Assembly: GCA_903860975.1 (NCBI GenBank)
Contig: CAIOSI010000040.1
Coordinates: forward strand, 1-64,000
Length of the DNA stretch: 64,000 nucleotides
Reading direction: 5' to 3'
From: an uncultured Alphaproteobacteria bacterium
Lineage (GTDB): Bacteria > Pseudomonadota > Alphaproteobacteria > Caulobacterales > Caulobacteraceae
The notes under the pieces: generated by a model
What the model was told of the DNA's origin: nothing
The model's database searches: none
What the model saw: only the letters and a program-made list of their open reading frames with translations
Program-made: the position numbers and the translations under genes
Shown: piece by piece, positions 8,804 through 63,572 of the stretch
Layout of the letters: each line of letters opens with the position of its first letter
How positions within the stretch are numbered: position 1 is the stretch's first letter

Positions 8804-9260
8804 TCGGGCAGATAGACCGATCCCCAATCATCGGGGCCGTTCGGTGGCCCGACCTGTTGAAGAGCTGCGAACGCCCCGGCCAGAACGCGTAGCGCCGCCT
8901 GTCGCAAGCGCGATAAGAGGCCTCGAACTGTCGCAGACCTTTTTCCCTGCGCCGCTCCGCGCACTTTAATTTTACTCTGAAGGGTTCGACCACGCAGACT
9001 TCACGATGGCAGGGCGCGCACCGGGCGGCGCGCATGCCCCTTCGGTATCGACCCGTCGTGATGGCGGCCAACAAGGCCCGCAGGGCTGATGTCGGCGCGG
9101 TTTAACCCGATGCGACACTCCAGAGTTTGAGCCAGCCCTCGAAAATGACGGCCGCTTCCGCCGCCATCAGCTGCGTTCGCCAGCCCAGCAGGGCTGAGCC
9201 TCGATGGAGGAGGGTGCGCCTGGCTGGCGACGTCAGGAACCGTAAATGAGGCCGCCGCCA

Positions 9261-11000
9261 CTACGCGGCAGGAACGCCTGAATTTACCAGCGCTTCGGCC
9301 ACCGCTTTTGCATTTGGCCCGAGCAGTAGATGCACACTGTTTGCCCCCGGTCGCGCGATCCCCCGGACGCCCAGGCCGCCCAGTGAGATTTCATCAATGG
9401 CCTCGACGCTGGCCATCTCGATGTAGATCCGGCTTGCGCAAAGGCCGCAGCCTTTCAAATTGTCCCGGCCGCCAAGCGCTTTCAGCCAGGGTAGGGCGTC
9501 CAAGTTGGCGACTGCCGGCTCGGCGACTAAGGCTGCGTCATTGTCTGCGGCTGCCTTCTGCAGCGCGCCAACGGCATCGCGGATTTCGCCTGCGACCTGA
9601 TCGGCAAGCGGCCCCAGCACCACCTGGAGGCTATTGGCGGAGGGGCGTACGAGCCCCTTTGCGCCGAGCGCCTTTAGCCTGGGCTCGTCGATGGCGGCCT
9701 GATCTGCAATCACCAGGCGCAGGCGCGTCGTGCAGGCGTCGACACTGACGAGGTTCTGAGCGCCGCCGAGCGCGGCGACAAACGCCTGCGCCCGATCACT
9801 CGCGCTCGCCGGCGTGGCGGCCGTCTGGCCCTCAATGTCGCGCCCGGGCGTCTTCAGGTCGAAGCGGACGATCGCCCAACGAAAGACCCCGTAATAAAGC
9901 GCGAAATAAGCCAGGCCGACGGGGGCCAGCAGCAGCGGCTTCGTCGCCTTGCTGAAGTTCAAGACGTAGTCGAAGAGGCCTGCAGAGAAGCCAAACCCCA
10001 GCTTTACGCCGAGGATGTCCATCACAACAAAAGCCAAACCCGTAAGGCCGGCGTGCAGGGCGAAGAGCAGAGGCGCCAAGAAGATGAAACTGAACTCGAT
10101 GGGCTCGGTGACGCCGGTCAGAAACGAGGTCAGGGCCATTGACAGCAGCATGCCGCCAACGGCCTTGCGCCGCCCCTGAGGGGCGGCGTGATACATCGCC
10201 AGGCAAGCTGCCGGCAGGCCGAACATCATCACCGGGAAGAAGCCAGCCATAAACACGCCGGCGCTTGGATCGCCGGCGAAGAACCGCTTCAAGTCTCCGG
10301 TTGCCCCGTGAAAATCGCCGACGATGAACCAGGCGACATTGTTGAGGATATGGTGCAGGCCAGTGACGATCAGGATGCGGTTTGCAAGGCCATAGGCGAA
10401 GAGGCCCAGGCGGCCGGATCCGACGATGGCGTGGCTCAATCCATCGAGCCCGCCGCTCAAGGCATCGTACGCGCCGCCGATCAGGCCGGCCATAACCAGG
10501 CCGCCTAGGCCCGCCAAAATTGGCACGAACCGGCGTCCGCCGAAGAAGGCGAGATATTCGGGCAGCTTTATATTGGAAAATCGATTGTAGAAGAGTCCGC
10601 CGACGAGGCCTGACGCGATGCCGATCGGCACGCCGAGCTTGCCCACGGCCTTGGTTTTGAATGCCGCTTTCGCGAGATCTACAGCGTCACCGGCCAGGCC
10701 CTTCAAGGCATCTGCAGGGACGTGCAGCAGGCTCTGAGCGCCTTGTGTCGCGATCAGGAAACACACAACACCGGCGAGGCTGGCAGCGCCGTTGTTGCTT
10801 TGGGCTAATCCCACGGCGACGCCTGCAGCGAACAGCAAGCCGAGGTTGGAGAAGATCGCATCGCCCGCGGCGGCAACGAAGGGGATGTTCAGAAGATCAG
10901 GCTGACCCAGTCTTAGAAGCAAGCCTGCCACGGGCAGCACCGCGATCGGCAGCATCAGGGCCCGACCCAGCGACTGCAAGGCTTCAAGCGGCGAGCGCAT
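9261..11000 (-). CDS. nagE: PTS N-acetylglucosamine-type EIICB with two tandem EIIB-like domains
   Basis: EIIC glucose-family region; EIIB motif SVDACTTRLRL then a second EIIB-like repeat LKGCGLCASRIYIEM; linked to nagA, GH20 and a fused PTS protein. Confidence 0.85.
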   Translation of the reverse strand: MRSPLEALQSLGRALMLPIAVLPVAGLLLRLGQPDLLNIPFVAAAGDAIFSNLGLLFAAGVAVGLAQSNNGAASLAGVVCFLIATQGAQSLLHVPADALKGLAGDAVDLAKAAFKTKAVGKLGVPIGIASGLVGGLFYNRFSNIKLPEYLAFFGGRRFVPILAGLGGLVMAGLIGGAYDALSGGLDGLSHAIVGSGRLGLFAYGLANRILIVTGLHHILNNVAWFIVGDFHGATGDLKRFFAGDPSAGVFMAGFFPVMMFGLPAACLAMYHAAPQGRRKAVGGMLLSMALTSFLTGVTEPIEFSFIFLAPLLFALHAGLTGLAFVVMDILGVKLGFGFSAGLFDYVLNFSKATKPLLLAPVGLAYFALYYGVFRWAIVRFDLKTPGRDIEGQTAATPASASDRAQAFVAALGGAQNLVSVDACTTRLRLVIADQAAIDEPRLKALGAKGLVRPSANSLQVVLGPLADQVAGEIRDAVGALQKAAADNDAALVAEPAVANLDALPWLKALGGRDNLKGCGLCASRIYIEMASVEAIDEISLGGLGVRGIARPGANSVHLLLGPNAKAVAEALVNSGVPAA

Positions 11001-11002
11001 GG

Positions 11003-13507
11003 TTAGGCCCCTCCGTTGAGGAACGTATAACTGAGCGCGCGAACCTCCTGGGCAGACGTTGCACCCAGCGCCGATTGAGCGAGCTGTTGGCAGGCTTGCG
11101 CGGACAAAGTGCGGATCAACGCCTTGGCCTCGGGGATTGTGGCGGATGTCATCGACAGCTGGCTGACGCCCAGGCCAATCAGAATCGGGATCGCGGCAAG
11201 GTCACCCGCCAGCCCGCCGCAGACGCTTATCCTGAGCCCTTGGCTCGAGCCGCCGATACAGGTTTGATGGACCAACCGCAGCACAGAGGGATCCAGACCA
11301 TCGGCTTCGGCCGCCAGCTGCGGATGAGCGCGGTCCATCGCCAGCGCGTACTGAGTGAGGTCGTTGGTGCCGATGGAGAGGAAGTCAGCTTCCTTCGCCA
11401 ACTTGTCGGCTATCACCGCCGCAGCGGGCGTCTCGATCATAACCCCGAGTTCGAGACGAGCCTGGATGCCTAGGTCGCTTTGCGCCGCGACGAGAGCTGC
11501 ACGCACAGCGCGCACTTGCGAGGGGTTAGACACCATTGGGATCATGATGCTGCATTTGCCAGGCGGCATGACCCTCAAAATGGCGCGCAGCTGCGTCTGC
11601 AGCATCTGTGGGTGACGCAGCAACAGGCGCACGCCTCGCAGGCCGAGGGCAGGATTTTCCTCCATCGCCTGCGGCAGGTAGGCGACGGGCTTGTCGCCGC
11701 CAATGTCCAATAATCGGATGACGATCGGCCGGGTGCCCAGAGCATCGGCAATCGCTTGATAGTCTCTGGTTTGCTCGTCCTCGTCGGGTGCCGTCTCGCG
11801 GTCCAGGAACAGAAACTCGGTGCGCAACAGGCCCGAGCCTTCAGCGCCACTTGCGACTGCGGCCTGCGCCTCTGAGAGAGAGCCAAGGTTGGCCAATATC
11901 GGTATGGCCGTTCCATCTGCCAGCTTTGCGGGATCACCAGCTGCGGCACGTGCAGCTTGTCCCTGCGCTGCGCGAGCCGTCAACTGACCGTGTGCGGCCG
12001 CGAGCTCGGCGGCGTTGGGCGAAACCTGCAAGACCCCTGAATCGGCGTCGAGGATCAGGGTTGCGCCATCGGGGATCGCCGCCAGCCTTGCCCCCATCGC
12101 GACCAGAGCGGGAAGCCCCATCGCGCTGGCCAATATCGCGACGTGAGAGGTCGGCCCGCCACCGCCGGTACAGATTCCCGCCAGCCGGCCTGGCAGGATA
12201 TTCATAAGCTGAGAGGGGAACAGCTCATCGGCCAAAAGGATGGCGCCAGCTGGAAGCTCTGCCTCAAGGTCTGTTTCCCCGGCCAGCGCTAACAACACCC
12301 GCCGCTCAAGATCGAGAAGGTCATCGATCCGTTCGGCGATCCGCCGGTCGGCCAGGCTCTGCAAGGCCTCGACGAAACCGCCAACGGCGGCCTTCCAAGC
12401 AAAGCCGGCGGATTTGCCCTCCTCGATCAGACAATCAGCTTTGCCTTTGAGTATCGGATCATCCAGGAAGGCGGCGTGTGCGCCCAAGATTGCGCGGTGG
12501 GTCGTCTCGGGAGCGTGGGCGATGGCCGAGGCGACCTGGGCGGCGACCTCACTTAAGGCGGCTCTGAGGGCAAGCCGCTCATGGTCCACGCCTTGGCCTT
12601 CTTCGGGCGTCACAATCTCCAGGCGGGCCAGGCGCGCGGCGACGCCGATGGCGAGGCCTGGCGCGGCCATCAATCCACGCAGAGGACCGCCGTTGGTCAC
12701 AGGAGACGCCTTTGGCGGTCGCCGTGTGGGGGCCAGAGCCTTCGTCTCATCCATGCCGCTCTCAATCAGCGCGACGATGGCAGACAGCGCGGCCTCAGCG
12801 TCGGGGCCCAAGGCGGAGAGCACGGCGGTGTCGCCGTGTTGCAGGCCAAGCGCCATCACCCCAACCGGGCTGCGCGCGCTGGCCGTTCGGCCGGCCCAGG
12901 CAAATGTAACCTCGGCGTTGAACGCGGCGGCGCACTGCGCCAGGCGTGCGGCTGGCCGAGCGTGTAAGCCATGAGCCAGGGGGATGATGACGACCCGGGT
13001 GGCGCCAGGACTGGCAGATCGCAACGGTGTTGCTGCGGCCTCTTGGCCTGGGCTCAGCCGCATCAGGATATCGCCTGCCGATACCCGTCGATCGGCTTGA
13101 CTCATCACAATTCTGAAGCCGGCGGCCTGCGTGATGATCATCGTGGAAACGAGACTGACGGCCCGCCGCGCAAGCAGATCCAGGTCGAAGCTAATCAGCC
13201 GATCGCCTGCTTTTACCGACTGCCCGTTGGCGACATGCGGTTCGAACCCTGTGCCACCCAGGGCGACGGTCTCAAGGCCGATATGCAGCAAGATCTCGAT
13301 ACCAGCCGTGGTCCGCAAGCTGACGGCATGATGCGCAGCATGCAGGCTCATCACCATCCCGTCGCAAGGCGCTTTGAGCACGCCGCTGGTTGGATCGATG
13401 GCGATACCTTCGCCCAGCATGGCTTGAGCGAAGACCGGGTCCGGCACTTCCGCCAGGCTGCAGGACCAGCCGGCCAGTGGTGAAAGCAGGACAAGGTCAG
13501 CGGCCAA
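11003..13507 (-). CDS. Fused PTS protein EIIA(Glc-type)-HPr-EI (phosphoenolpyruvate--protein phosphotransferase)
   Basis: EIIA IEILLHIGLETVAL; HPr LAHGLHARPAARLAQ; EI GGGGPTSHVAILASAMGLPALV and SIGTNDLTQYALAMDR. Confidence 0.93.
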   Translation of the reverse strand: MAADLVLLSPLAGWSCSLAEVPDPVFAQAMLGEGIAIDPTSGVLKAPCDGMVMSLHAAHHAVSLRTTAGIEILLHIGLETVALGGTGFEPHVANGQSVKAGDRLISFDLDLLARRAVSLVSTMIITQAAGFRIVMSQADRRVSAGDILMRLSPGQEAAATPLRSASPGATRVVIIPLAHGLHARPAARLAQCAAAFNAEVTFAWAGRTASARSPVGVMALGLQHGDTAVLSALGPDAEAALSAIVALIESGMDETKALAPTRRPPKASPVTNGGPLRGLMAAPGLAIGVAARLARLEIVTPEEGQGVDHERLALRAALSEVAAQVASAIAHAPETTHRAILGAHAAFLDDPILKGKADCLIEEGKSAGFAWKAAVGGFVEALQSLADRRIAERIDDLLDLERRVLLALAGETDLEAELPAGAILLADELFPSQLMNILPGRLAGICTGGGGPTSHVAILASAMGLPALVAMGARLAAIPDGATLILDADSGVLQVSPNAAELAAAHGQLTARAAQGQAARAAAGDPAKLADGTAIPILANLGSLSEAQAAVASGAEGSGLLRTEFLFLDRETAPDEDEQTRDYQAIADALGTRPIVIRLLDIGGDKPVAYLPQAMEENPALGLRGVRLLLRHPQMLQTQLRAILRVMPPGKCSIMIPMVSNPSQVRAVRAALVAAQSDLGIQARLELGVMIETPAAAVIADKLAKEADFLSIGTNDLTQYALAMDRAHPQLAAEADGLDPSVLRLVHQTCIGGSSQGLRISVCGGLAGDLAAIPILIGLGVSQLSMTSATIPEAKALIRTLSAQACQQLAQSALGATSAQEVRALSYTFLNGGA

Positions 13508-56454: not shown

Positions 56455-57666
56455 TCAGTTAAAGCGACCCGATGCGTCCTGCGCCCGATGTCCCTCGCCG
56501 CTGCCGTTCGCGTCCTCTTCGCCCTTTGGCGGAACGGGCGGCGGATTGCACGGACCGCGCTCGGGTTCCTTGGGGTTGACGGGCACCCGGGTCGGCGCGC
56601 CAGCAGGTTTCAGGAAGCGATCGAACCAGTCGATGGTGACCATCATCGCCCGCTTCCGCTCGACGTCGTAGATGCCGTAATGGGTGATGTCGGGGATCAT
56701 CACCAGCTTGCGTGGCCCCATCACCCGCTCGCAGGCCAGTTGGCCGTTGTTGGCATTTGCAAACAGCTCTTCCTTCTGAGCCAAGACGAACAGCGCGGGC
56801 GTGGTGACTTGGATCGCCTCTTCGACCGGCGCCCAGCGCACCACCTTGGCGCCCACAGCGGCACCCACCTTGGCGCCCAAAGGGGCACCGTCGATGCGCG
56901 CACGCTCGGCCGGATACGGCTCCTGACCCGTTGCGATACGCGAGGCTGCGGCGTTGGCCTGGGCGATCACATTGGCGGGATCCAGCTGGTAGGGCTTATA
57001 GGGCCGGGTATCGACACTGCTCACCTGGCTGACCAGTGCCTTGATCCGAGGTTCATGGGCCGCCACAGCGATGACGTGGCCTCCGGCAAGGTCGGAGCCG
57101 AGAATGCCGATTCGGCCAGCGTCGACCATCGGATCGGTCACCGCATAGCTGATCGCGTTGAACCAGTCCTCAACCTGCTCTGAAGGGTCGACATAGCCGC
57201 GCAGCTCGCGCACTTGCGCCGTGAAATCCCCTCCCGCGCCGGGTTTCTGGCCGGTGAGCATGACCCGCCCTTCGCTGTCGCCCCATCCCCGGTAATCGAA
57301 CAGCATGACCAGAAATCCGGCGCGTGCCAGGTCGAGGGCGTCCTTGTGCAGCATAACCGCCGTACCGCCCCAGCCAGGCGCGATGATGACGGTGGGCAGC
57401 TTGCGACCTTGGTTCTCGGCGGCATAGAACCATTGTCCCTTCAGGCGGACGTTTTCGCTGATGAAGTCTGCAGCCCTGACGTCGATGTCCGGGGGCGGAC
57501 GGTCATCGCCAGCCGAGGTCAAGCCTTGCGCAGTGGCGGGATCGACGGCCACAACCTTAGGGGCGTCGCGACCAATTTGCGCCACCGGGGCCTGCGCGAA
57601 GGCGGGTTTTGGAAATGCAACGACGACGGCGCCGCAACAAGCCAATATTGCAAAAACTGATCTCAT
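56455..57666 (-). CDS. Exported alpha/beta hydrolase (dienelactone-hydrolase/DltD-like Xaa-Pro type)
   Basis: PTVIIAPGWGGTAVMLHKDALDLARAGFLVMLFDYRGWGDSEG, RIGILGSDLAGGHVIAVAAHEPR. Confidence 0.8.
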   Translation of the reverse strand: MRSVFAILACCGAVVVAFPKPAFAQAPVAQIGRDAPKVVAVDPATAQGLTSAGDDRPPPDIDVRAADFISENVRLKGQWFYAAENQGRKLPTVIIAPGWGGTAVMLHKDALDLARAGFLVMLFDYRGWGDSEGRVMLTGQKPGAGGDFTAQVRELRGYVDPSEQVEDWFNAISYAVTDPMVDAGRIGILGSDLAGGHVIAVAAHEPRIKALVSQVSSVDTRPYKPYQLDPANVIAQANAAASRIATGQEPYPAERARIDGAPLGAKVGAAVGAKVVRWAPVEEAIQVTTPALFVLAQKEELFANANNGQLACERVMGPRKLVMIPDITHYGIYDVERKRAMMVTIDWFDRFLKPAGAPTRVPVNPKEPERGPCNPPPVPPKGEEDANGSGEGHRAQDASGRFN

Positions 57667-57714: not shown

Positions 57715-58356
57715 TTAATGAAAGTAATCATCGTATATACCTAGTATTTTATACTGCATTTCGATCTTGGAATCGCCTTCCTTTTTGTGAAGGACGACAG
57801 ATCCACTATATAAATCTTTAGATATCCTCTTCAGGTCTCCTGTTTCTGTTGCTGACTCCCAATGATCTCCTGAAGCAGAAAGCCCGCATGGCTGGAAGCT
57901 TCGAAGAAGATCGTGCTGTGCCGCGGTCGGAATGTCAGCCTCTCCGATAGGCGGCATCCAGGCGGTGCTGAGATTGCTGCGCAACCACACGGTATTGATA
58001 CAGACCCCGTTCGCCGCCCGAAACACCCGAACCGTGCGCGAGTAGGTCCAGTCTGCGTCAGCAACTTCGGGTCTCTGATAGATATTGAAGACGATACCTA
58101 AGCGGAACGCCGGCTGGTCGGGTGTGCTTTTAGGGGCCGCATCGAGCTTGGCCTGCGTCTGCTGAATCTGCTCAGACATCGTCTGAGTTTCCACCTCTTC
58201 TCTCTGGGCGGCCTCCTGGTTCATCAGCATGAGGGCGGCCACCAGGATCAGGAAAAGAAATAGGATCCCGATGAACAGGTCGGTGAAGGACACGAACGGT
58301 CCCTCATCACGGGCCAGCTCCCCAGACCGGGAATGTCGCCGTAACCGTCCAGACAT
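57715..58356 (-). CDS. MotB/ZorB-like single-TM stator subunit without an OmpA peptidoglycan-binding domain
   Basis: N-terminal FVSFTDLFIGILFLFLILVAALML with Asp in TM entry, as in MotB/ZorB/ExbD-type subunits; remaining ~150 aa shows no OmpA motif; overlaps upstream gene by TAATG. Confidence 0.7.
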   Translation of the reverse strand: MSGRLRRHSRSGELARDEGPFVSFTDLFIGILFLFLILVAALMLMNQEAAQREEVETQTMSEQIQQTQAKLDAAPKSTPDQPAFRLGIVFNIYQRPEVADADWTYSRTVRVFRAANGVCINTVWLRSNLSTAWMPPIGEADIPTAAQHDLLRSFQPCGLSASGDHWESATETGDLKRISKDLYSGSVVLHKKEGDSKIEMQYKILGIYDDYFH

Positions 58357-59336
58357 TACGCGCCGCTCCTGCGCGGCAGGGCCGGTCCAAATGAGATGAC
58401 AGAGTCCTTGGCGTTGGTTTTGATGGCCGCGGCCGTCTCGGCGATGGCTTCGTTGAGGGACGCCAGATCCAGCTTCGATATCCGATCGAAGACGGCTTCT
58501 CTGACGAAGTGAAGGTCGATTTCATCCTGGCTCGCCGGGCCGGCGTCCGGCGGGCACCAGGCGGCGGCGATGTCGGGATCGGTGAGTGCGCGGTCGAAGG
58601 CGTCGCCCAGGCGCACGATGTGCTGAGCTGCCTCCGAGCCGGAGCGATAGATCTGCACCAGCAAGGCGCAACCGACACCCACTGCAGATATCCAGAACTT
58701 GTTGGCGGCGGTCGCCAGCAGGACCTGGATGAAGTCGCGCATGTGCGCGCTTTGTGCGGCAGCCGATCCTTGTGCCAGGCCGATGTTCGCACTGGCGATT
58801 GTGAGCGCTGCAATGAGGCCCATGAATGTCCCGAGAAGCGCCACGCGGATAATGAAATCGCCAAAGCCGCTCAGGCCCCTGTGAAGCCGCCTGTACTCGT
58901 CCTCCAGCATCGTTCTTGCGGGCCGCAGGCCTTCAAGGCTGTGGCGTTTCGCCGGGACCGCCGCCATCACCCCCAGATAGTTTGCGCTCGACCGTGCGGT
59001 CGCGGATTTGGGATTGCGCCAGACCTTGTGCTCTCCAAGGTCGTCTCTGCGGCACGCCTCATGCGTGAGAATGCGAGCGCCTGTCGACTCGTTCAACAAG
59101 AGCAATTGTGCGACCTTGCCGGAGGCGTCAAGCAAATGGGCGGCATCAACAAGTTTGATGATGTCGCGAGATACCTTGGTTTCTGCCATTATCGCCAAAT
59201 GATTTCGAACAATGGCAGTGATCGTTATTAATATAAGTAGTCCTGAATAAACAAAAATAAATGAACTCGACGCAAATATTCTAGATATATCCACGAAATA
59301 TTCCCCCGTTGCCCCGCGCAGTGTTCGATCAGACAA
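58356..59336 (-). CDS. MotA/TolQ/ExbB/ZorA-like proton-channel subunit
   Basis: N-terminal TM IFASSSFIFVYSGLLILITITAIV; LLGTFMGLIAALTIASANIG and FIQVLLATAANKFWISAVGVGCALLVQI TM pair typical of MotA/ExbB family. Confidence 0.75.
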   Translation of the reverse strand: MSDRTLRGATGEYFVDISRIFASSSFIFVYSGLLILITITAIVRNHLAIMAETKVSRDIIKLVDAAHLLDASGKVAQLLLLNESTGARILTHEACRRDDLGEHKVWRNPKSATARSSANYLGVMAAVPAKRHSLEGLRPARTMLEDEYRRLHRGLSGFGDFIIRVALLGTFMGLIAALTIASANIGLAQGSAAAQSAHMRDFIQVLLATAANKFWISAVGVGCALLVQIYRSGSEAAQHIVRLGDAFDRALTDPDIAAAWCPPDAGPASQDEIDLHFVREAVFDRISKLDLASLNEAIAETAAAIKTNAKDSVISFGPALPRRSGA

Positions 59337-59906
59337 AAATGCGTCCGCATTCAGCTAAAACGCTTCAAATTTCAAGGCTATACCTTTAGGTGCGGCCAAA
59401 TGTTCGCTGGACGGTCACAGCGGCCAACAAAACAGCATGATGACGACAATTCGGCCTTGATACTTTGGGCGGGCCGGATGGACGCCCACCACGGGGTCTG
59501 AAGTGGTCACCGGCGATGGCGTGAGACTAGGACACCGTCGGATGAGCTGCGGATGTCGTATTTGTAGCGTCGCGGCAATATCTCTTCAGGGCGCAATCGG
59601 CCACCCCCGTCTGGGCAAGCGAAATAGAACGACCGTGAAGCCGGCTTTGCAAACCTCCGTTGGAGGTGTCCGGTTTCGGCCCGTGACGGGCCTCAATGTG
59701 CCAGAGCTGCCAAGTTCTGCCCGCGCCGTCAGCCGCGGGTTCATCGACGCTTTGCAATGCCAATGGCGTCAGGACGCCGTGAACGACGCGTGCGTGATCC
59801 GATCAGATGGGGGCCGAAATTCATTGGCGTTGCGACGGCGCAATCATCTCTAAACCGTTCAGTGCTAGGCGAGCCCCCACGACGGCGAAGCAACGGAAGG
59901 GCACTG

Positions 59907-61415
59907 ATGTACAGTGGATCGGCGAAAGAGCGTGGGCGCTTGAGTTGGACGCCTGGCGCGGCGTTTGCTGCGCTGCTGTTCGGTCTTCTGGGGGCGTTTG
60001 CCCCGCACGAGGCGGCCGCCATGCCGCAGGCTGCGGCCGCTTTTTGCTCTGTCTATCCTGAGGCCAAGGCCTGCGCCTCCGGCGCTGCGCCTTGCGCGAT
60101 GTGTCACACAACGCCGCCGCAGCGGAATGCGTATGGCACCTCGCTTGCGGCGCGAATTGCACCCGGCCAGCCGCGGCCGCTGGCGGTCGATGTCTTCCTG
60201 TCCGGATTGCGCGACGCCTTGAAACTTACCGAACAGGATGACGCCGACGGCGACGGCTTCTCGAACATCTCCGAGATTTTCGCAGGCACCTTCCCGGGCG
60301 AGGCAGCCAGCTTCCCGGTGTCGCTCACCTGCAAACCCGGTGAGGCCCGCCAGGCCTCCCAGCAGCGCTGGAACGTCTGCGCCTATGACCCGATCTACGC
60401 CTTCAAGAAAGTCAGCCTCGATGTTTGCGGTCGCTCTGCGACACGGGCTGAGTTGTCAACCTTCCAGGGCCTCGCCTCGAACCGCAAGCGCTGGGAGCCG
60501 GCGCTGTCGGCGCAACTGGATCGCTGCCTGTCCACGCACTATTGGCTCGGCAAGGAGGGAGCGGTTTGGAACATCGCCAACGCCAAAATCCGCCCGTCCC
60601 ATACCGTCAAGGCCGGACAAAACCCCGGCCCGGTTCCGCTCGCCGACTACGAAGACGACTTTAATCTCTTCACCTGGGCCAATATCGGCGACCATGACGT
60701 CCGCGAGGAGCTGCTGGCCCAGTATTATGTGAAGCGGGTGAGCGATGACCCTGTGAAACTCGCCATCATGACCGAGGCTGAGGTCAAGGCCGTCTCCAGG
60801 CGCGCTTCCCAGAATGTGCCGCAGGAGCGGCGGGTGGGCCTGATCACGACGCGCTGGAACGGGGCGATCAACACGATGTTCACCGCGGTGCCGCGTACCA
60901 CGGCGGCGCAGGCTTATCGTGCCTTTTTGGGCTACGACATCGCCAAGATGCAGGGCATCTCGTCGGTTCCCCACGAGCCGATCGATTTCGACGCAAAGGG
61001 TGTCCAGGCGCCGCAATGCGCCGCCTGTCATGCGACGCTCGATCCGCTGACCTATCCCTTCACCCGATACAACGGCATCGGTCGCTACAACTACGAGGCG
61101 GGTCGTCTCCAGAACTTTGTCCGTTCCGACGGTAAACGCGTCACCGAAGCACCGGAAAACGGTATTCTGCTGGGCCACAAGGTCAAGGACCTGATGGAGT
61201 GGGGCCAGGTCGCGGCCAACAGCGACCCCTTCGCCCAGAAAGTGGTCGGCGATTACTGGAAGGTGCTGATCGGACGCGACCCTGAGACCCATGCCCAGGA
61301 CCAGGCGGAGTACACCAAGCTCTGGCAGGGACTGAAGTCGCCCGACGCCTACAACTACCGTGTGGAGAAGATGCTGCACGGGCTGATCCTTACCCAAGCC
61401 TACGGCCGGCCTTAG
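59907..61415 (+). CDS. Exported diheme-type protein, DUF1592/DUF1588-like (Planctomycete-type cytochrome)
   Basis: Signal region; CAMCH and CAACH heme motifs; DUF1588-like CAACHATLDPLTYPFTRYNGIGRYN. Confidence 0.7.
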   Translation: MYSGSAKERGRLSWTPGAAFAALLFGLLGAFAPHEAAAMPQAAAAFCSVYPEAKACASGAAPCAMCHTTPPQRNAYGTSLAARIAPGQPRPLAVDVFLSGLRDALKLTEQDDADGDGFSNISEIFAGTFPGEAASFPVSLTCKPGEARQASQQRWNVCAYDPIYAFKKVSLDVCGRSATRAELSTFQGLASNRKRWEPALSAQLDRCLSTHYWLGKEGAVWNIANAKIRPSHTVKAGQNPGPVPLADYEDDFNLFTWANIGDHDVREELLAQYYVKRVSDDPVKLAIMTEAEVKAVSRRASQNVPQERRVGLITTRWNGAINTMFTAVPRTTAAQAYRAFLGYDIAKMQGISSVPHEPIDFDAKGVQAPQCAACHATLDPLTYPFTRYNGIGRYNYEAGRLQNFVRSDGKRVTEAPENGILLGHKVKDLMEWGQVAANSDPFAQKVVGDYWKVLIGRDPETHAQDQAEYTKLWQGLKSPDAYNYRVEKMLHGLILTQAYGRP

Positions 61416-61426
61416 GAGACGCCCAG

Positions 61427-62047
61427 ATGATCCGTCATCCGCTTATCGTCCTTGCGGCTCTATTCGCCCTGGCGCTGCCTGCGGCGGCCGCTGCCGCAGG
61501 GCCGTCCGAGGTCCCCCGCAACTCGCTCGATCCGCGCGTGAAGCTCAAGGATGGGGATCGGTATTTGCGCGACCTGTCGGCGCAGCTGGAGATACCTCGT
61601 GAGGAGATCTGCAAGGAGCTCTTGCAATATGACTGCTTCCGAGACGCCTTCCGGATCGTGCTGGGCGGGGTCGATGCCGCTGATCTAGGCGTCAATGAAC
61701 CGCTGGAGCAGGAGGCGCTGACGGCGCCGATCGCGCTCGATCGTGTCGCCTTGCGTGTCTGCGTCACGCGGGTCGAGCGCGACCTGGCCGATCCTAAGCA
61801 TGCGGTCTTGTTGCGGGGAGCTGGCCCCAAGGGCACCTCGCCAAGCCCGGCTTGGGTAAAGCGCACCGTGCAGGGCCTTTACGACCGGATTTTGGCTCGC
61901 GACGCGACGCCTGCGGAGACTGCCCAGCTTATGGGCTTCTACCAGAAGGTCTCCGCCTCGGCTTCGCCCGCCGACACCAAGGTTAAGGACTGGGTGACGC
62001 TCGGTTGTTTCGCCGTCGCGTCCTCGGTCGAGAACGTCTTCTACTGA
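61427..62047 (+). CDS. Exported protein of the same cassette (DUF1549/1595-like helical region)
   Basis: Signal peptide MIRHPLIVLAALFALALPAAAAAA; VQGLYDRILARDATPAETAQLMGFYQKV; 11 bp after the diheme gene. Confidence 0.65.
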   Translation: MIRHPLIVLAALFALALPAAAAAAGPSEVPRNSLDPRVKLKDGDRYLRDLSAQLEIPREEICKELLQYDCFRDAFRIVLGGVDAADLGVNEPLEQEALTAPIALDRVALRVCVTRVERDLADPKHAVLLRGAGPKGTSPSPAWVKRTVQGLYDRILARDATPAETAQLMGFYQKVSASASPADTKVKDWVTLGCFAVASSVENVFY

Positions 62048-62069
62048 AATCGGACACGGGATCGGACAG

Positions 62070-63572
62070 ATGAACAGCCATTGGTCACGCCGCACTCTGC
62101 TTGGAGGCGGATTCAGTCTCGGCGCCATGCTGGCTGGCGCGCCGTTTGCGGCTCGCGCCCAGGCTGCTGCGAACGGACCGCCGCCGAAATTCCTGATCGT
62201 GCTGAGCGCCTTTGGGGGCGCAAACCTGATCGACTCCTTCATGGCGGTACGCGAAAGCGAGAGCCCCAACGCGGCGCAGTTGAACGCCTATCCCAACGAC
62301 CTCGTGCAGACGATCGGTGAGTTCCGCGCGATCGACCTGAAGTCCAAGGCGATCGGGGCGATCCCAGCCTCGTTCACCGCCAACCAGTCGAACTTCGTCA
62401 AGAAGCACGGCAGCGACATGATGGTGGTGACTCGTACCGGCAGCAGCGTGAACCACTTCGTGGGCCAGCAGCGCTCTATCAACGGCAACGCCGCGTGGAA
62501 GGGGCGCACGCTCCAGGAGGCGGTTGCTCTGACCTACGGCCAAGGCCATGCCATCCCCAATGTCCATTTGGTGAACGGCACCGGCTTCACTGAGCACGGC
62601 ACTGACAAGTCCATTCCGACCTATGCCTTCGGCGAACGCGCGCCGTCTCCCAATCTTTGGCCGCTTTCGCTCGATGGCTACAAGGGCGTGCGCGGCGCGC
62701 CTCAGCGCGACCTCTTTGAGGCGGCGCGGCGCTTGCGCAACGACCAGCTCGACCCGGGCTCGGACTTCTTCAGGACCTTCGGCCAGAGCGAGAAGGTCAA
62801 GCACTGGCAGGGCCTGCGCGAAGATTCCCTGCGCGGCGTCGAGGCCCAGGATCTGATCACCAAGCTAATGCTGTTCCCGGACTCGCCGAAGATGCCGCTG
62901 ACCGCCAGCGGACTGAAGGGCTCGGACCTTGGCCAGAAGGTGCGCGACGCCTTCCCCAACTACGACTTCGATCCCCTGGAAAGCCAGGCGGCGCTAGCGT
63001 TCCTGCTGCTGCGCTATGGCGTCTCGGTGACCGTCACTCTGGGGCCGGAAGGTGCAGCGGTATTCAAGAAGGGCGTTACCCTGGGGCAGGGTGGGCTAGG
63101 CGAGGGCGATATCGTCAACACACCGATTTCCTTCGACTTCTCCCATCAGGCCAACCGCGAGGTCCAGGCCGTGATGTGGGACCGGATCCTGAAGACGGCC
63201 GATCGGCTGATCACTCTGCTGAAGTCCGAGGAATACGCCGAAGGCAAGAGCTATTGGGATCACTCAATGATCTATGTGGCGACCGAATTTGGCCGCACCC
63301 GCAAACGCCCGGATAATGCCATGACCTTTGGCACTGGCCATGAGCTGAATAACGGTGCCCTGATCATCTCGCCTATGGCCAATGGTGGCCGGGTGCTGGG
63401 CGGTGTCGATCCTGAGACCTTGATGACCTATGGCTTCGATCCTGCGACCGGGCGTCCCGACAAGGGCCGGACCATGACCGAATCGGAGATCTACGGCGGC
63501 ATCGTTCAGGCCCTGGGCATCCCAACACCGGGCGCGGGACTGACGGACATGCGCGTGATGCGCCGGACTTAA
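62070..63572 (+). CDS. Tat-exported DUF1501-like protein
   Basis: Twin-Arg MNSHWSRRTLLGGGFSLGAMLAGAPFAARA; ATEFGRTRKRPDNAMTFGTGHELNNGALIISPMANGGRVLGG. Confidence 0.75.
   Translation: MNSHWSRRTLLGGGFSLGAMLAGAPFAARAQAAANGPPPKFLIVLSAFGGANLIDSFMAVRESESPNAAQLNAYPNDLVQTIGEFRAIDLKSKAIGAIPASFTANQSNFVKKHGSDMMVVTRTGSSVNHFVGQQRSINGNAAWKGRTLQEAVALTYGQGHAIPNVHLVNGTGFTEHGTDKSIPTYAFGERAPSPNLWPLSLDGYKGVRGAPQRDLFEAARRLRNDQLDPGSDFFRTFGQSEKVKHWQGLREDSLRGVEAQDLITKLMLFPDSPKMPLTASGLKGSDLGQKVRDAFPNYDFDPLESQAALAFLLLRYGVSVTVTLGPEGAAVFKKGVTLGQGGLGEGDIVNTPISFDFSHQANREVQAVMWDRILKTADRLITLLKSEEYAEGKSYWDHSMIYVATEFGRTRKRPDNAMTFGTGHELNNGALIISPMANGGRVLGGVDPETLMTYGFDPATGRPDKGRTMTESEIYGGIVQALGIPTPGAGLTDMRVMRRT

Follow-up and report, generated by a model that had tools for sequence, protein, structure and literature searches.

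A stretch of 64,000 nucleotides, referred to below as the window, carries on its minus strand three consecutive genes that encode, in order of transcription, a stator A-subunit with three transmembrane (TM) segments (gene A, 58356..59294, 312 aa), an axle subunit with a single TM segment (gene B, 57715..58356, 213 aa) and a secreted protein of the alpha/beta-hydrolase fold with an N-terminal signal peptide (gene C, 56455..57666, 403 aa). The anatomy of this module and the partnership between A-B and C are well supported, and from them we infer an output: A, B and C would constitute a single operon that encodes an accessory, ion-driven machine of the envelope acting through C, a reading for and against which we find the balance about even. 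Because the host genome already encodes tol, exb and mot stators, A-B is an extra one, and the trio, which occurs in Phenylobacterium and in one related genus, suggests a kind of energised envelope machine that has not been described before.

The two minus-strand genes A and B are coupled through TAATG, exactly as first described, in both the listing of open reading frames and the comparison with homologues. The longest open frame of A begins at TTG 59336 and spans 326 aa. Because a Shine-Dalgarno-like GGGGGAA followed by GTG or TTG recurs across the homologues further downstream (59287..59306, approximate, minus strand), we reset the start to GTG 59294, which is most likely the true start and gives the protein of 312 aa; the corresponding codon is TTG in one homologue and GTG otherwise. 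The first-pass annotation had also placed the pair between AT-rich flanks, and this description stood only in part. The dips are real, with a GC content of ~0.40 at 57.6-57.9 and 59.1-59.4 kb compared to 0.58-0.70 around them, but they do not lie wholly outside the coding sequence, as they include the 5' end of A and the 3' end of B. Given that the dips are partly coding and that weaker ones recur in the homologues, we rejected their interpretation as insertion scars.

The same annotation called A-B an orphan, two-gene module, and neither term survived the comparison of genome neighbourhoods. In the window, C lies on the same strand, separated from B by a spacer of 48 nt, and the search for a recurrent partner of A-B found C directly downstream, again on the same strand, in 11 of the 12 loci (the window, ten loci from one genome collection and one from a search of the genus); further flanking genes are not common to these loci. 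At four loci, C was recovered by tblastn, the greedy caller of open reading frames having given antisense artefacts over it. The copies of C are 58-74% identical to that of the window in a multiple alignment, and a search of 199 genomes of the family found C homologues with at least 60% identity solely in carriers of A-B, and beside A-B. The pairwise divergence of B and that of C are correlated (r = 0.87), with a contribution from shared ancestry, and both this correlation and the adjacency of the two genes can also reflect shared inheritance. A counterpoint to C as a dedicated partner is the locus L049, where C is missing; in the region 8945-10964 of this locus, A and B are followed by a low-complexity protein, putatively a lipoprotein, and by another B that has diverged, and a tRNA-like sequence was noticed by eye beyond the module, at about 11110-11180.

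Across the 12 independent loci, A is 71-86% and B 51-76% identical, and the median dN/dS is 0.22 for A, 0.25 for B and 0.43 for C. Conservation of this extent under purifying selection excludes a chance gene pair. A broader version of this explanation, under which A and B are decayed or have come together by chance and have no function of their own, could appeal to the restriction of the pair to two genera and to its absence from most of their members; given that the reading frames are open and strongly conserved at the 12 loci, with dN/dS well below 1, we consider it barely credible. The carriers of A-B belong to Phenylobacterium and other Caulobacteraceae. The C-terminal head of B, traced with its own profile (A4), was found in 9 of the 101 genomes of the genus, in three from a sister genus of the same family and, besides the window's own, in none of 384 genomes of the class and 298 of the phylum. 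The neighbours of A-B are, judged by eye, ordinary chromosomal genes. Carriage by mobile elements was considered and rejected, as A has no match in the plasmid, phage and viral collections and the 64,000 nt of the window contain no tRNA.

Several computational comparisons show that A carries the A-subunit fold of the ion-driven 5:2 stator superfamily (MotA/ExbB/TolQ/ZorA). The MotA/ExbB-type arrangement claimed for the first gene is borne out by three TM segments, which in the numbering of the 326-aa frame lie at about 25-44, 162-185 and 205-231 and of which only the first two pass the cut-off of the hydropathy scan. No Pfam family matches A, and the matches of PF01618 (MotA_ExbB) in this genome are TolQ, ExbB and MotA only. 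The sole significant family matches of A are to models of ZorA: the PADLOC ZorA1 models match A and all ten aligned relatives (best 4e-10; 3.8e-10 for the A of the window), and hhalign of A versus ZorA gives 7e-6. Invariant residues of A that are common to genuine ZorA include Thr170, Gln195, Lys213 and Ser217. Structure prediction for the first subunit also recovered a fold of the MotA/ExbB type, the AlphaFold2 model of A (mean pLDDT 71) returning TolQ, ZorA and ExbB as the top Foldseek hits, with a probability of up to 1.0 and a best E of 0.011. When profiles are ranked, short ZorAB-like pairs of Caulobacteraceae are the closest to A, followed by ZorA, with TolQ, ExbB and MotA undetectable. 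The protein ends ~95 residues past TM3, and the cytoplasmic tail of ZorA is missing.

In B, the TM segment occupies residues about 21-45, after an Arg-rich N-terminus. The single TM with an acidic residue that had been noted in the second gene is confirmed, with Asp26, in FTDLFIG within the TM, invariant in all 12 copies and aligned with the Asp of ZorB. The matches of B to the ZorB1 profile are confined to this TM part, which hhalign aligns with ZorB at an E of 1.4e-7 and which weakly matches two solved B chains of the ZorAB type. The C-terminal head (57718..58113, minus strand; residues about 82-213, ~130 aa) is predicted to be beta-rich and is specific to the A-B-C family; against ZorB, hhalign gives it a probability of 0.1 and no alignment. 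The earlier remark that the second subunit lacks an OmpA peptidoglycan-binding domain was equally well founded, as no OmpA domain was detected in any of the 12 B proteins, and the genuine ZorB proteins of the same bacterial family (L059 and L060), which served as controls, do score OmpA. The AlphaFold2 model of B is of low confidence (pLDDT 61) and gave no significant match in a fold search; a weak resemblance of the head to a lipocalin-like beta-barrel was disregarded. The head contains exactly two cysteines, Cys119 and Cys157, both invariant in 12 of the 12 copies, a pattern as would be expected of a periplasmic disulphide. Taken together, the ZorA and ZorB profiles, the fold match and the absence of OmpA support a ZorAB-like stator whose axle head is not of the peptidoglycan-binding type.

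The ZorAB proteins of Zorya types I and II are the named families nearest to A and to the TM part of B, with the same core residues, and this relationship, along with the patchy occurrence of the module (9 of 101 genomes), is what would favour a reduced Zorya-like anti-phage system. The differences are extensive. The ZorA of Zorya (650-662 aa in this bacterial family) has a long cytoplasmic tail, whereas A has none; ZorB has an OmpA-type peptidoglycan-binding domain that is absent from B; and, in place of the ZorC, ZorD and ZorE partners of Zorya, A-B is accompanied by the hydrolase-fold partner C. None of ZorC, ZorD and ZorE was found beside A-B, either in the window, by the listing of open reading frames, or at 10 homologous loci, by inspection; of the window proteins, A, B and C only were run through PADLOC. 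Zorya I and II depend on the tail of ZorA as well as on the peptidoglycan-binding domain of ZorB (PMC11890865). Because both are absent here, as are ZorC, ZorD and ZorE, we rejected membership of A-B in Zorya, and a defence function, one of the two roles first proposed, is disfavoured; the chromosomal appearance of the neighbours and the lack of copies in the plasmid, phage and viral collections likewise fail to support it.

The same family also has type I Zorya-like operons with the full set of ZorA, B, C and D (L059:7942-15879 and L060:880-8646), which provide a control: all four L060 proteins are PADLOC-positive, and at L059 ZorA and ZorB were tested, with ZorC and ZorD assigned by size and order. 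The nearest relatives of A-B that we found are the short, tail-less ZorAB-like pairs of other Caulobacteraceae (L055:6488-8136, L056:6208-7934, L057:6181-7889 and L062:7058-8706). In these pairs, an A of 254-283 aa, which is only 22-24% identical to the A of the A-B-C operon, lies beside a B of 290-294 aa that shows an OmpA-like signature by eye and no Pfam match; C is absent from these loci, and inspection revealed no ZorC or ZorD nearby. The two pairs tested, L055 and L062, reach 2e-45 on the PADLOC ZorA1 model and 4e-36 on ZorB1. Because these non-Zorya pairs score far better on ZorA1 than A itself, the model is not specific for defence. The short pairs accordingly pose a risk of false positives in defence annotation, and matches to ZorA or ZorB profiles do not by themselves signal phage defence. 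In view of these observations, we regard a reduced Zorya-like system as improbable.

Other known stators are more distant. The three-TM fold of A is common to TolQR and ExbBD, but the profile scores against the genome's own proteins are near zero, for A with TolQ and ExbB, which PF01618 does detect, and for B with TolR and ExbD, and inspection showed no tolA or tonB adjoining A-B. From the flagellar MotAB, the pair differs in that PF01618 does not match A, its MotA match being located elsewhere in the genome, and in that the OmpA domain of the MotB type is absent from B. Two works published in 2025 describe motors whose axle (transpore helix) carries a vWA domain (PMC12204202) and generic ion transporters (GIT), which are non-flagellar A-B pairs that vary in their appendages and heads (PMC12505986). 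With the vWA-bearing 5:2 motors (PMC12204202), the module has in common the concept of a transpore helix that bears a periplasmic domain other than a peptidoglycan-binding one; it differs in the hydrolase-fold partner and probably in the head, which is predicted to be beta-rich, as opposed to the Rossmann-like vWA fold. The low-confidence model of the B head is beta-rich without a Rossmann pattern, and Pfam returns no vWA match. The likeness to GIT (PMC12505986) is one of theme, that is, a non-flagellar pair with varied appendages and heads. The A-B-C family was not found in the portions of PMC12204202 and PMC12505986 consulted, which does not establish its absence from the literature. The A-B-C operon belongs to this broader theme of motors with varied heads, but its head is a different one and it has a soluble partner dedicated to it.

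C is a protein of the alpha/beta-hydrolase fold with a nucleophile elbow. Its Pfam matches above the cut-off are S15, DLH and AXE1, the elbow follows the pattern G-x-[D/S]-x-x-G-G, and the fold and the His and acid positions are common to C, UilS-family lactonases and hydrolases of the S15/AXE1 type. The resemblance to UilS lactonases is limited, given that the UilS model scores C below threshold (94 bits against a 400-bit cut-off) and that C differs in the substitution of Asp for Ser, the signal peptide and the C-terminal extension; UilS has been reported as cytoplasmic (PMC11633161). The changes in C can be read against its stand-alone relatives. At the nucleophile position, 192, 10 of the 11 motor-linked copies have Asp and one (L048) has Ser, and two stand-alone homologues (L075 and L076, 46-48% identical) have the elbow GSSFSGG with Ser at this position; Glu299, Glu300 and His329 have been retained. 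The motor-linked copies possess a C-terminal extension of ~50 aa (about 356-403), mostly terminating in GRFN. This extension, with Cys373, is missing from the stand-alone proteins, which have Ser in place of the Cys at 312. Cys312 in the core and Cys373 in the extension are the sole mature cysteines in 10 of the 10 aligned copies, and the presence of exactly two such cysteines in each copy suggests a disulphide that would hold the extension to the core. Tandem C-like hydrolases unlinked to A-B were observed at L079:1552-3383, one of them with Asp at the nucleophile position (GVDMGGG). Because this distant, unlinked relative has Asp too, the residue is not strictly motor-specific.

Asp serves as the nucleophile in haloalkane dehalogenases and epoxide hydrolases. 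C might be an active Asp-nucleophile hydrolase of this kind that acts on an envelope or imported substrate, with A-B aiding uptake or positioning, or merely co-transcribed. Under this explanation, Asp, His and Glu could constitute a working triad, as His329 and Glu299/Glu300 are invariant in 10 of the 10 aligned copies, and both the retention of Ser in the L048 copy and the purifying selection on the gene would be readily understood. The extension and the cysteine pair, both missing in the stand-alone relatives, suggest instead a specific partnership, and the dN/dS of C is the highest among the three genes. On balance, an active enzyme of this kind seems to us unlikely.

The reading that we favour is a machine that acts through C, and its presumed operation can be outlined as follows. 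We infer that five A subunits would surround a dimer of B, giving a 5:2 motor with the fold of ZorAB, TolQR and MotAB, and that ions passing Asp26 of B would rotate the axle or put it under strain. The periplasmic head of B, predicted to be beta-rich and to contain a disulphide, would replace the OmpA grip on peptidoglycan and would act on the dedicated periplasmic C and, through this protein, on a ligand or substrate in the envelope. C itself would be a reshaped hydrolase fold, with its nucleophile changed from Ser to Asp and its C-terminal extension probably stapled by Cys312-Cys373. The more specific proposal that ion flow turns the axle of B, so that the head pulls or cycles C in force-coupled envelope binding or catalysis, is tentative and, as it stands, rather unlikely; should the motor indeed drive C mechanically, the output would be of a class undescribed for Mot, Tol, Ton and Zorya.

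The flow of information could also run in the opposite direction. Envelope sensing by the A-B module, the other role first suggested, is possible, and in one version of it C would be the sensor, such that C, once bound to an envelope or foreign ligand, would act via the head of B to open the ion path of A5B2, and the ion influx would serve as a signal or depolarise the cell. Ten of the 11 copies of C have lost the Ser that is usual as the nucleophile and have kept the fold residues, as might be expected of a binding protein. Zorya is thought to run from envelope perturbation to a cytoplasmic effect, and this direction may be counted as a parallel by analogy. The module, however, has no gene for a cytoplasmic effector, and the ~95 residues of A after TM3 offer little for signalling, and we consider C as a sensor unlikely.

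Only a small number of outputs of 5:2 motors are known, namely, flagella, gliding and type 9 secretion, Ton, Tol and Zorya. To these, the machine acting through C would add a family whose periplasmic head is new and which, unusually, has a soluble partner in the periplasm that is tightly linked to it. In such a compact three-gene system, what 5:2 motors push on becomes directly testable.

The surroundings of the operon yielded additional observations. A divergent three-gene cluster that encodes PSCyt3/DUF1501-like proteins lies at 59757-63572 of the window and is sporadic in the genus; the neighbouring PSCyt gene was uninformative as a synteny anchor for A-B. An Rfam search found nothing, a sigma-70 scan was likewise negative, and terminator-like sites occurred at chance level. 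Between the cluster and A, blastn and alignment revealed a conserved non-coding leader (59461..59584, minus strand, about 170-290 nt upstream of A) that has a sharp outer edge, is kept in six loci and, in most copies, contains a CACCGGACGGTG-like palindrome. We considered whether the leader is a dispersed repeat and rejected this possibility, as the leader is present in single copy and is specific to the operon: among the 101 genomes of the genus, its core occurs, with 0-1 mismatch allowed, solely upstream of A-B-C.
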